Below, in pieces: positions 8,253-21,276 of a DNA stretch of 56,508 nt. The notes beneath the pieces were generated by a model. It was not told where the DNA came from, searched no databases, and saw only the letters and a list, made by a program, of their open reading frames with translations. Position numbers and translations under genes: made by a program. The first letter of the stretch is position 1. Each line of letters begins with the position of its first letter. This DNA comes from an uncultured Bacilli bacterium (GTDB taxonomy: Bacteria > Bacillota_I > Bacilli_A > RF39 > UBA660): the NCBI GenBank assembly GCA_947589735.1, contig CANQCR010000011.1:1-56508 (forward strand), given 5' to 3'.

Positions 8253-8300
8253 TAAAAAGAGGGAAGCTTTATTGTCTTTTCTTTTTTTTTTTGCTACAAT
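8253..8300 (+). promoter_or_regulatory. weak terminator running into an extended -10 promoter
   Basis: GGGAAG (8261-8266) can pair with CTTTTC, followed by eleven T (8282-8292). TTGTCT (8272-8277), 17 bases and TACAAT (8295-8300) with a TGC extension form a promoter for the PrsW-like gene; the T-tract is the spacer. Confidence 0.5.
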
Positions 8301-8324: not shown

Positions 8325-9170
8325 ATGGTTATTATTTTACTAATTTTATCTACTTTGCCAGTCTATATCTTTGGACGTATTGTCTATAAGAACGATTTTG
8401 ATAAGGAACCTAAAAGCATTCTTACGAAGCTTTTCTTTTGCGGTATTGGCGCTACTATTTTGACAACTTTCATAACGATGGCTCTATCTTATTTTATTCC
8501 TTTTTTTAGTAGTGAAGAGGGGTTAAATGTAATTGAGCTTATTCCTTATACTTTCATTGGTATTGCTTTAATTGAAGAGTTTTCTAAATGGATTTTCGTC
8601 TATAATTTAGAATATAATGATAATGAGTTTAATCATTTGTATGATGGTATTGTCTATGCTGGCTTTGTAGCTTTAGGCTTTGCTTGTATTGAAAATGTTT
8701 TATATGTCATTCAAGCAGATATTCAAACGGCCATTTTTAGAGCCTTTTTAGCTATCCCTGGTCATTTATGCGATGGGGTAATGATGGGATATTATCTATC
8801 ATTAGCAAAACTTGCGCTTATCAATAATAATCCAAAATTATCTAAGAAAAATAAGATTCTTAGCTTACTAGTACCTGTTATGACTCACGGCATTTATGAT
8901 TATTTATTATATGCGGCTAGTGCGACAGAGAACGCTATATTTACCTTTGCTTTCTTATTGTTTATTGTGTTTTTCTTTAATTATTGTTATGGCAAGGCGA
9001 TGCAATTTGCTAAAAACTATTATAATTTAAATCCTAAATATATATCGGAACATCAACGAAAAGAACAACTTGGACAGTTAAATAAAGAAGATGTGGTGAT
9101 TGCTTGTCCTAAATGTGGTATGAAAACGAGTGACCATTTTTGTAGTAATTGTGGTTATCACATAAAATAA
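8325..9170 (+). CDS. PrsW-type intramembrane metalloprotease with C-terminal zinc ribbon
   Basis: 281 residues with about seven to eight hydrophobic helices. The PrsW motifs are present: EEFSKW near residue 84, FACIENVLY in the next helices, GHLCDGVMMG and a later MTHGIYDY. PrsW cleaves anti-sigma factors within the membrane in Bacillus; its substrate here is unknown. The C-terminus adds a zinc ribbon with two CxxC pairs (CPKCGMKTSDHFCSNCGY), a tail that recurs in the unrelated TIM44-like proteins of this window. The ATG has GAGG upstream. Confidence 0.8.
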   Translation: MVIILLILSTLPVYIFGRIVYKNDFDKEPKSILTKLFFCGIGATILTTFITMALSYFIPFFSSEEGLNVIELIPYTFIGIALIEEFSKWIFVYNLEYNDNEFNHLYDGIVYAGFVALGFACIENVLYVIQADIQTAIFRAFLAIPGHLCDGVMMGYYLSLAKLALINNNPKLSKKNKILSLLVPVMTHGIYDYLLYAASATENAIFTFAFLLFIVFFFNYCYGKAMQFAKNYYNLNPKYISEHQRKEQLGQLNKEDVVIACPKCGMKTSDHFCSNCGYHIK

Positions 9171-18321: not shown

Positions 18322-18627
18322 ATGGATGCATTTATTGTACTTTTACTAGTAATAATTATTATATGTTGGGCTTGCTATCGTCGTAAGCTTTCAAAAGCTG
18401 CTTACGGAATAGCGGCTTTAGATATCTTTTTACGAATCGTTTGCTGGATAGCCCAACAATTTAAAGGTGGCGCTGTTGATGTCTTTTTAACACGTTTTCC
18501 TAATAGCTTACTAGGTGTAGCCGGTAAATATACTGATGGCATAATTTATCTAATTATTGCCTGGGCATTTATCATCTTGATGTGTTACTTCTTATTTATG
18601 ACTTTAAGTATTTTCTTTAAGAAATAA
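18322..18627 (+). CDS. Small membrane protein of unknown function
   Basis: 101 residues with three hydrophobic segments (about 4-18, 28-46 and 72-98) and a basic patch YRRKLSK after the first. No family was recognised. GGAAAGTG lies before the ATG, and TGTGATAAAAT about 30 bases upstream is a possible -10. It follows the TIM44-like array by 58 bases and is the last intact gene before the decayed insertion sequence. Confidence 0.6.
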   Translation: MDAFIVLLLVIIIICWACYRRKLSKAAYGIAALDIFLRIVCWIAQQFKGGAVDVFLTRFPNSLLGVAGKYTDGIIYLIIAWAFIILMCYFLFMTLSIFFKK

Positions 18628-18900
18628 ATGTTCTTTGTCAAATAGTGTTGGCGGGCAATAAATTTGATAAATGAATCTAGTTATAGAGGATGATGAAAAT
18701 CATCAGATTGTTGACAACGCAACATCGCAAATTTTTAGACTAAATGCAGGTTTATAAAAATTTGTTTAATTTATTAGACTTATTTCAGGTTTAAAACCAA
18801 GAAACGGAAATAAGTCTTTTAATTTTGATTAATAAATGAGAAATTTTTATATGCTAAAATAACAGAGTTATCTCTGCTTTTTCAACTTATTTCTGCTTTT
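18628..18900. other. non-coding stretch with a strong hairpin
   Basis: No gene seen. At 18777-18820 a 10-bp perfect stem (18777-18786 with 18807-18816) encloses a second small stem and is followed by TTTT on the plus strand, a possible terminator. The stretch is probably flank or further debris of the adjacent insertion element. Confidence 0.45.
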
Positions 18901-18918
18901 ATAATGTTTCTTCGCCAA

Positions 18919-18948
18919 TAAATTGTTTTAGCTAGCTAAAACAATTTA
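18919..18948. repeat. perfect 30-bp palindrome
   Basis: Fifteen bases on each side of the centre at 18933/18934 (GCTAGC core) are exactly complementary. It overlaps the end of the transposase remnant and probably served as its transcription terminator. Confidence 0.8.
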
Positions 18949-19366
18949 CTAAATAATTCTTCATCAAACACATTTATAAATGCTTCTTTTGAGGTAAAAC
19001 TATCTAATGATTTTAATGGTCGATCAAGTAATGTTTTATTAATATTTTTAATATCTTTTTTATCGTATGTGTCTATTGTGCTTTCTTTTGCACTTTAATT
19101 GCATCGTATTTGTACTTTGTAAAAACACATTGATTATTATATTTTTTGTTACATCCAGTACAAACATAAGGCCATCTATTAGTTTTCTTACAATTAGTAA
19201 TATTTTTCCCTATAGTAATAGATTCTCTGTTCCTTTTTACTTCTTTAAAAATACTAGTTGGATAATATCCTAAGGCTTCGGCTATTTCTTTAACCTTATA
19301 CTTGTGTGAGATTCCATTGGCTATAACTTTTCTTTGTTCAAATGTTAAATGTTTCTAGTCTTTCAT
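18936..19366 (-). pseudogene. IS30-type transposase pseudogene
   Basis: Reading the minus strand from ATG 19366: MKD, a stop, then KHLTFEQRKVIANGISHKYK and VKEIAEALGYYPTSIFKEVK, the N-terminal helix-turn-helix of IS30-family transposases, with a CxxC motif farther on. After about 90 codons another stop and a frame change lead to DRPLKSLDSFTSKEAFINVF, the C-terminal end, closing at 18936. The DDE catalytic core between is missing. A ribosome site GGAGGAA remains before the ATG. Confidence 0.75.
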
Positions 19367-19495
19367 TTCAATTCCTCCTTCTTGGCAAAGAAACATTTAA
19401 CTTATTATACTCTAATCAGGGTTATTGCAGTTTTTTTATTAAAAACGGAATTCCCAATGAAAATTAACGTAGCATATATTTTAGGAAAAAGTTAC

Positions 19496-19524
19496 TTGTT
19501 TTTTTTTTTTTTTTGCGATATACT
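19496..19524 (+). promoter_or_regulatory. promoter whose spacer is a 16-T run (possible phase switch)
   Basis: TTGTTT (19496-19501), 17 bases, TATACT (19519-19524). An uninterrupted run of 16 T (19499-19514) fills nearly all of the spacer. Such a run is prone to slippage, and one-base changes would alter -35/-10 spacing. GGGAGGG and ATG follow at 19531-19547. Confidence 0.55.
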
Positions 19525-19544
19525 CTTGGTGGGAGGGTAAAATT

Positions 19545-20969
19545 ATGAATTTCAATCAATTAATTAATGAAATAAGAAAACGAAATCCTGGTGTTGAAAT
19601 TAGAGTTGGTGATCCACAATTCGATTCACTTGCTGATAGTAGAATTTTTAGCTCCAAACCAATGAGACAATTAAGATTGCCACAAGGTTATTATGCAACT
19701 GGAAAAAATGGTATTACTAATAGACAATATAATACTGAAACTGGGCTATATACAAGTATATCAGTAGAAAGTTTAGATGATATGGTAGTAGGTTCAACTT
19801 TTCCAGCAGTAGATGTTAGTAAGCCATTAGAAACTACTGACATAAGGGAGATTGCTATTGCTATACAAAGATTAAATCCGGGTGTCGAGGTTAGATTGGC
19901 AAATCCAAGTTTTGATCCACAGGCTGATTCAAAAATTTTTTGTAGCGTTCCAATGAGTGAATTAGCATTACCCACACCATTTTATTATAATGAAAAAAAT
20001 GGTATTACTAATAAACATAATTCAATTAATGGTTTATATACTTCTATTGACGTAGAAGATATAAGTAAAGCTAACCCAGCAATATTAATGTCAACTGGAT
20101 ATAATCTTCAAGAAGAAAAAAAACAACAATATGATATTGATATTAAAAGAAAGGAACAAGTTAATTTACGTAGTTTAGAATATAGAACAGAATTAAATCA
20201 ATATTATATAGATCAACTACAAAAAAGAATTATGGAAATTATACATCAATATCCAGGTTTACCTAGTACTATGCCAAGAGAAATAAGAAAAGAACATATA
20301 CTTACATTAGAAATGAAGCATCTACTTGATATGGGCATTAAATCAGCAATATCAAAGCCAGAAATGACAAAAGACGGATTAGTAATAGATTTATCTACAA
20401 AGGAAAAATATGAGAAATGTAGTGAAGCATTATCAGCAATTCAAAAACAAAATGGAATTAATATTGACAAACACCCTAAAACTGTTGAAGAAAAAGAACA
20501 ACAACAAAATCAACAACAAACTGGATTAACAACTGAATTGCCAACTTTAAAAACTGAGCCACAACAAGAATTAGCACAAATAGGAAGAGAAAAAAGAAAA
20601 TTTACTATTTTACAAAGAGAAAGAGCTATTAGTGACGCTCAAAAAGCAAAAAATCGTTCAGCTATAATGGCTGGGCTTTGTATTCTTGGTGCAACTGTTG
20701 CAGTATATTTTAATGAACAAGATATTAATACAATTTTACAACACGAACTAAACGCAATTTATTCTTGGGAAGCATTAGGACAATATTTACAAGATTTAGG
20801 CCCATTAACTACTCTACTAGCAGCAGGTGCAGGTGGATTTATTGCTAAATATTTCAAAAATTCAAAGAAACTTAAACAAGCTCAAAATGAATTTATTGAT
20901 TTTAATAATTCTTTGGAAAAAACTAATGTTGAAGAATTAGGAGGAAATGAAAATGCTAAATCAAGGTGA
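19545..20969 (+). CDS. Unknown protein with a duplicated N-terminal module and C-terminal membrane hairpin
   Basis: 474 residues, family not recognised. Two modules of about 70 residues repeat: NPGVEIRVGDPQFDSLADSR ... KNGITN ... GLYTSISVE (about 14-76) and NPGVEVRLANPSFDPQADSK ... KNGITN ... GLYTSIDVE (about 110-174). A helical, Lys/Gln-rich middle contains a QQQNQQQ stretch. Two membrane helices (about 379-396 and 424-443) are followed by a charged tail. Arginine is mostly AGA, unlike neighbours that use CGT freely, so recent transfer is likely. Sits just after an insertion-sequence remnant and behind the poly-T promoter. Confidence 0.6.
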   Translation: MNFNQLINEIRKRNPGVEIRVGDPQFDSLADSRIFSSKPMRQLRLPQGYYATGKNGITNRQYNTETGLYTSISVESLDDMVVGSTFPAVDVSKPLETTDIREIAIAIQRLNPGVEVRLANPSFDPQADSKIFCSVPMSELALPTPFYYNEKNGITNKHNSINGLYTSIDVEDISKANPAILMSTGYNLQEEKKQQYDIDIKRKEQVNLRSLEYRTELNQYYIDQLQKRIMEIIHQYPGLPSTMPREIRKEHILTLEMKHLLDMGIKSAISKPEMTKDGLVIDLSTKEKYEKCSEALSAIQKQNGINIDKHPKTVEEKEQQQNQQQTGLTTELPTLKTEPQQELAQIGREKRKFTILQRERAISDAQKAKNRSAIMAGLCILGATVAVYFNEQDINTILQHELNAIYSWEALGQYLQDLGPLTTLLAAGAGGFIAKYFKNSKKLKQAQNEFIDFNNSLEKTNVEELGGNENAKSR

Positions 20970-21168
20970 GATTTTAACTTTAAATGATAATAAAAAATAT
21001 TCAGTAGTATTTACAACAAGTTTTAACAATAAAAATTATGTTTATTTAATAGAACAAGATGATTATACAAATACAATGTTCTGTGAATACGATAATAACA
21101 ATGGACTTGAAGAAGTATCTAATCCAACTATAATTGAAGAATTATTGAAATTATTTACTCAATCATAA
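20953..21168 (+). CDS. Small DUF1292-like protein, partner of the preceding gene
   Basis: 71 residues from ATG 20953, which has GGAGG eight bases upstream; it overlaps the previous gene by 17 bases. The sequence (GEILTLNDNKKYSVVFTTSF, NNKNYVYLIEQDDYTNTMFCEY) looks like the small beta-rich proteins of the DUF1292 type, whose role is unknown. Tight coupling to the duplicated-module protein suggests that they work together. Bounded downstream by a terminator. Confidence 0.55.
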   Translation: MLNQGEILTLNDNKKYSVVFTTSFNNKNYVYLIEQDDYTNTMFCEYDNNNGLEEVSNPTIIEELLKLFTQS

Positions 21169-21251
21169 AACGATTAATAATACTAATAATGAATAAGTAA
21201 AGGAACTTAAAATAAATAAACCTTATATTAAATCTGATGTAATTAAGAAAT

Positions 21252-21276
21252 AAAATGACTAAATTGTCATTTTTTC
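21252..21276 (+). terminator. terminator of the accessory two-gene unit
   Basis: Eight-base stem (21252-21259 with 21266-21273) around a 6-base loop, ending in a T-run. Confidence 0.75.

Follow-up and report, generated by a model that had tools for sequence, protein, structure and literature searches.

Phase variation driven by homopolymers in promoters is known chiefly from pathogens, and the locus studied here raises the question of whether an uncultured Bacilli bacterium carries a promoter of this kind. In the window (the whole stretch of 56,508 nucleotides that was analyzed), an uninterrupted run of 16 T's precedes a pair of genes (Table 1), and a first-pass annotation had read this run as most of the spacer of a slippage-prone promoter, with TTGTTT and TATACT 17 bases apart. 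The sequence confirms this spacing, the 17 nt being made up of 13 T's plus GCGA, and the start codon of gene 1 lies 30 nt after the end of the tract. The homopolymer thus sits between hexamers of unequal quality: TATACT is a good -10 (5/6 positions) and TTGTTT a poor -35 (3/6 relative to TTGACA), for a total of 8/12. Because the -35-like hexamer agrees at only three positions, the site does not appear in the list from a consensus promoter scan of the window, and the two hexamers by themselves prove nothing, because the scan finds about as many sites in shuffled sequence (26 in the window vs. 23.5 in shuffles, about the chance level). What raises the window site above chance is its recurrence.

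Table 1. Features of the poly-T locus and of the repeats upstream of vWA paralogs (positions refer to the window unless a locus is named)
Feature	Position	Strand	Basis or remark
Insertion of 2.6 kb between a 101-aa gene (18322-18627) and ruvA (21323)	18617..21257		Empty arrangement in relatives
Degenerate insertion sequence, IS30-like	18903..19397	-	19-bp terminal inverted repeats (89%), HTH_38 transposase fragment, stops
Conserved upstream box TATYT-NN-SRAAAA-NR-TTACTTG (here TATTTTAGGAAAAAGTTACTTG)	19477..19498	+	Fixed-spacing conservation, 14 unrelated downstream-gene groups
Putative -35, TTGTTT	19496..19501	+	Sequence; overlaps upstream box and start of T tract
T16 homopolymer, proposed slippage site	19499..19514	+	Sequence
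Putative -10, TATACT	19519..19524	+	Sequence, cassette comparison; GCGA directly before
Predicted transcription start	19530..19532	+	Predicted from spacing, 6-8 nt past the -10
Shine-Dalgarno stretch GGGAGGG	19531-19537	+	Predicted start immediately before it or at its first base
Gene 1, P0001, 474 aa	19545..20969	+	Twofold repeat seen by eye at the N-terminus; C-terminal segment weakly hydrophobic
Gene 2, P0002, 73 aa	20947..21168	+	Start overlaps the end of gene 1; resembles phrog_9372 weakly (function unknown)
Inverton-like repeats	L171:1313-1463, L167:1174-1339, L172:1286-1454, L176:2122-2274		Upstream of giant vWA paralogs

The genome (1.44 Mb in 26 contigs) is one in which such tracts are scarce. 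Under a first-order Markov model, about 0.23 T or A runs of at least 16 are expected in the genome, and the T16 tract is beyond what composition would produce by chance; for runs of at least 11, about 31 are expected and 4 were found. Just three runs reach 14, namely, the T16 in the window, a second T16 at C5:55324, and a T19 at C22:4702, and all three share the flanks AAAAAGTTACTTG-T(n)-G(CG/TT)GATATA. Directly upstream of GTTACTTG, the window and C22 copies are identical over 17 bp, and they are again identical over 17 bp downstream from the tract, with little similarity beyond; they precede unrelated genes, P0001 in the former and a zinc-ribbon membrane protein in the latter. The C5 copy lies upstream of a giant vWA surface protein with an open frame of 2548 aa. 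The sole other T run of at least 11 in the genome, at window positions 8282-8292, is without the TTACTTG flank and falls in the gap before a gene at 8325.

Using TTACTTG followed by at least nine T's as a seed, we found 11 sites in the genus, spread over five of 12 genomes, and none when the seed was read backwards in the same 12 genomes. Seven further MAGs held between 2 and 12 sites each (50 in total), with zero sites for the backward seed. Judging by RuvB, these MAGs belong to the same family as this genome: identity to its RuvB is 77-81%, in the range of other genera of the family (71-80%), with other families at 67% or less. Scanning the genomes of 84,980 species returned 38 stretches, and the cassette-like ones were in MAGs of uncultured Bacilli and Firmicutes, one MAG being labeled just "bacterium". 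The distribution is patchy, because 145 genomes sampled from across the family held no T11 or longer cassette outside this genome's own genus; a class-wide scan (0/395) used a pattern that excludes even this genome's own sites, and so is weakly informative. We found no description of this cassette in a literature search.

The general form of the cassette is TATYT-NN-SRAAAA-NR-TTACTTG, T(n), GA-TATAAT. Weighted over the 14 downstream-gene groups, the positions before TTACTTG read TATYT at -15 to -11, C/G at -8, A/G at -7, and AAAA at -6 to -3, and the T run is usually followed by 4 nt ending in GA and then by a -10 of the TA...T form. Because TTACTTG with its T run was the search seed and the TA...T form the matching rule, the independent evidence consists of the remaining cassette positions only. 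Among 36 clean sites, tracts range from T7 to T22, and the distance from TTGTTT to the -10 ranges from 8 to 23 nt, being 17 or 18 nt at 16 sites and 16-18 nt at 19, a distribution that fits a putative working optimum with candidate off-length alleles around it. Tract length also differs between two species, at the whiA-vWA promoter (the C5 copy), where this genome (G000) has T16 and the ortholog in its closest relative, G004, has T15 (protein 99% identical), a difference that is within assembly error; the 1.1-kb alignment of this promoter region contains two gaps on the scale of one base, including T15/T16, plus 24 mismatches.

The cassette stands before some 13 genes that are unrelated to one another and whose products are mostly secreted or anchored in the membrane, and a strongly hydrophobic N-terminal segment is present in 32 of 34 downstream proteins vs. 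15 of 45 genes in the window (p = 2.7e-8); the count by family, 11/13, is the fairer one, because many of the downstream proteins are paralogs. Among the cargo are giant vWA proteins, a LamG protein, one protein with weak resemblance to LPXTG surface proteins, a DUF6273 family of 14 members, and a seven-member family combining prepilin-N_methyl with BspA-LRR (two members scanned in each of these two families). In MAG G185, the genes at L119, L125, and L146-L149 encode fusions of a prepilin N-terminus (N_methyl) with BspA-type leucine-rich repeats, and a T-tract cassette precedes each. The same promoter arrangement is found before several surface-protein genes, the window's own gene being an exception. 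Taken together, the multi-locus cassette, the spacer peak at 17-18 nt, the T16/T15 ortholog pair, and the mostly surface cargo give good support to the promoter-spacer reading with which the analysis began.

P0001 is an atypical cargo and not a typical surface protein. It has no match in Pfam, PHROGs, or PADLOC, nothing significant in NCBIfam, and no relative among viral contigs, and a single-sequence AlphaFold run gave no usable model (pLDDT 38.6). It had been called membrane-associated, a description that the sequence bears out poorly: its C-terminal hydrophobic segment is weak and it has no signal peptide. The description of the pair as accessory, and its place in an insertion, are borne out, in that the insertion is bounded by a 14- to 15-bp direct repeat, TTAAGAAATAAATG (18617-18630) and TTAAGAAATAAAATG (21243-21257), and the 101-aa gene and ruvA adjoin each other, without insertion, in G003 (L151) and G006 (L153). 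A P0001-like gene with a small gene after it also occurs in G031 and G014 (L002:636-1941 and L003:1215-1878), which belong to other genera of the family, and the two genes thus make up a conserved unit of unknown function. The copy in G031 is not preceded by a T tract, so the cassette seems to have been added to the pair in this genome.

We consider it probable that the locus is a slippage-switched promoter with a homopolymer spacer, of the Mycoplasma vlp type, occurring in a new lineage and as a cassette shared by unrelated genes. The window site would be one of several copies of a promoter cassette that is portable and consists of a 22-bp box with TTACTTG at its end, the T tract, and GA-TATAAT; slipped-strand errors during replication would add or remove T's and so alter the distance from the -35 or upstream box to the -10. 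RNA polymerase would initiate well at a spacer of ~16-18 nt and poorly at others, and in single cells the downstream gene would thereby switch between ON and OFF, reversibly and at random. The model predicts ON for the window copy (T16, spacer 17) and for the vWA copy on C5 (T16, spacer 18), and OFF or weak for the zinc-ribbon copy on C22 (T19, spacer 20). Apart from these tracts, the genome has fewer long homopolymers than expected, which supports a switch, as do the inverton-like repeats of vWA paralogs without the tract. Against it stand the poor -35 match and the atypical nature of P0001; the predicted leader of P0001, ~13-15 nt, would also put the Shine-Dalgarno stretch at the extreme 5' end of the transcript, and the length of the conserved box, greater than that of a -35, points to an additional factor. 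The existence of a conserved cassette in up to 12 copies per genome, before unrelated and mostly surface-gene families of uncultured gut Bacilli, provides a simple signature with which to find variable surface genes in metagenomes.

Because the 22-bp box exceeds a -35 hexamer, what the T tract determines may be how far away a regulator site lies, instead of or besides the -35/-10 spacing. In the stricter form of this idea, a putative regulator-binding site (the box) and an extended -10 are separated by the tract, which acts as a slippery spacer, with NadR at nadA as a parallel. We regard this as possible but doubtful, and it is the main live alternative; it predicts phase variation, as does the -35/-10 model. 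The box is conserved over its whole length with fixed internal spacing, beyond what a -35 needs, TTGTTT matches a -35 poorly, an extended -10 (TGA ahead of the hexamer) is found in many copies, some copies have T7 to T11 and would be dead under the -35/-10 model, and a precedent of regulator sites spaced by repeats is given for nadA (PMC2791445). However, spacer lengths peak where -35/-10 pairs work best, and the window and C22 copies have CGA rather than TGA. A broader and equally tentative reading is a lineage-specific slippage regulon, in which one dedicated factor would read the TATYT..AAAA..TTACTTG box and each member gene would have its own T-tract switch. Under this one promoter type, the adhesins, prepilin-LRR proteins, and accessory genes expressed would be combined at random, while paralogs of these adhesins would have invertible promoters.

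Explanations that dispense with switching fare worse. If the tract were a fixed, AT-rich or curved promoter spacer, the commonest lengths giving a good spacer and the lack of any direct sign of variation in this genome would be accounted for, but not the wide variation between copies or the presence of such tracts in a genome otherwise poor in long homopolymers, and we think this unlikely. P0001 could instead be transcribed from an outward promoter, TTGGCA-18-TATACT (19382-19411), located where the IS remnant ends, which would leave the T tract merely in the leader. This has in its favor a 10/12 match to consensus, overlap with the remnant's terminal repeat, and orientation toward P0001; such matches occur at the chance rate in the window, however, and the recurrence of the T cassette at other genes would go unexplained, which makes this proposal very improbable. 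It is just as hard to credit that the element is an intrinsic terminator, with a stem-loop closed by TTACTTG, a U tract, and an incidental -10 match. A facing CAAGT arm is present upstream in 25 of 61 sites (vs. 1.7 in shuffles), folding energies of the whiA-vWA copies are -16.0 and -10.8 kcal/mol, and plain TTACTTG-T7 terminators are present in the genus, but the arm is missing from the window and C22 copies (-4.0 and -2.2 kcal/mol), conservation is better on the loop side than in the left arm, 16-19 T's are more than U tracts need, and a -10-like hexamer and start codon come after the tract. For the window copy, whose fold is weak and whose nearest plus-strand gene ends at 18627, 870 nt upstream of the tract, with no close codirectional gene, we rejected a terminator. 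The stem-loop is confined to a subset of copies such as that at whiA, where termination is possible as a second role. At L040:1501 and L050:1501, a palindromic AACAAGTAA..TTACTTGTT followed by T7, terminator-like, lies just before pseudopilin-like genes whose products start MRRNGFSL and MSKKGFT.

Several known systems resemble parts of this arrangement. The vlp genes of Mycoplasma hyorhinis also have a promoter homopolymer common to a set of surface-protein genes, and are turned ON and OFF through insertion or deletion in the tract (reviewed in PMC10502178); those tracts are A's before one lipoprotein family in a mollicute, whereas here coding-strand T's and a 22-bp box precede unrelated families in uncultured gut Bacilli as a proposed switch. 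The adhesin gene sabA of Helicobacter pylori has a promoter poly-T of similar length (13-19 T's), with mixed lengths within one strain, but in a Gram-negative organism and at a single locus for which no shared cassette is described (PMC2715451). In Streptococcus pyogenes, a species of class Bacilli, a T tract between Spy1336/R28 and Spy1337 tunes a surface-protein gene, although it has 8-13 T's, lies between divergent genes, and is one locus; the authors' model invokes the regulator Spy1337 and the spacing of its sites (PMC7098570).

T-tract loci break short-read assemblies, because contigs end in the tract or turn into smeared sequence. Contigs L106, L108, L126, L130-L132, L135, and L136 of G180 and G185 end inside a T tract, which is T18 for L106 and T49-T62 for the rest, and other contigs of the seven MAGs run on into smeared sequence past it. 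Such breaks and smearing are expected from sequencing stutter and from mixed lengths alike, and tract lengths above ~20 are untrustworthy, because the two are indistinguishable in assemblies. The cassette gives a testable reason for the breaks at these loci.

Invertons likewise switch surface genes at random, but through DNA inversion between inverted repeats and not through slippage, and Bacillus-like Firmicutes have few of them (a median of 0 per genome in the community that was examined; PMC11892184). We rejected an inverton at the window site: no inverted repeats flank the T tract in the window, and those that the window has belong to the IS remnant. Four vWA paralogs without a T tract, in G003, G004, and G000, have inverted repeats of 18-23 bp just upstream, 96-100% complementary and 107-133 bp apart (Table 1), and one adhesin family (vWA) appears to use two switch types in this genus. 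Contig G000:C21 (L168) starts inside such an inverton-like repeat.
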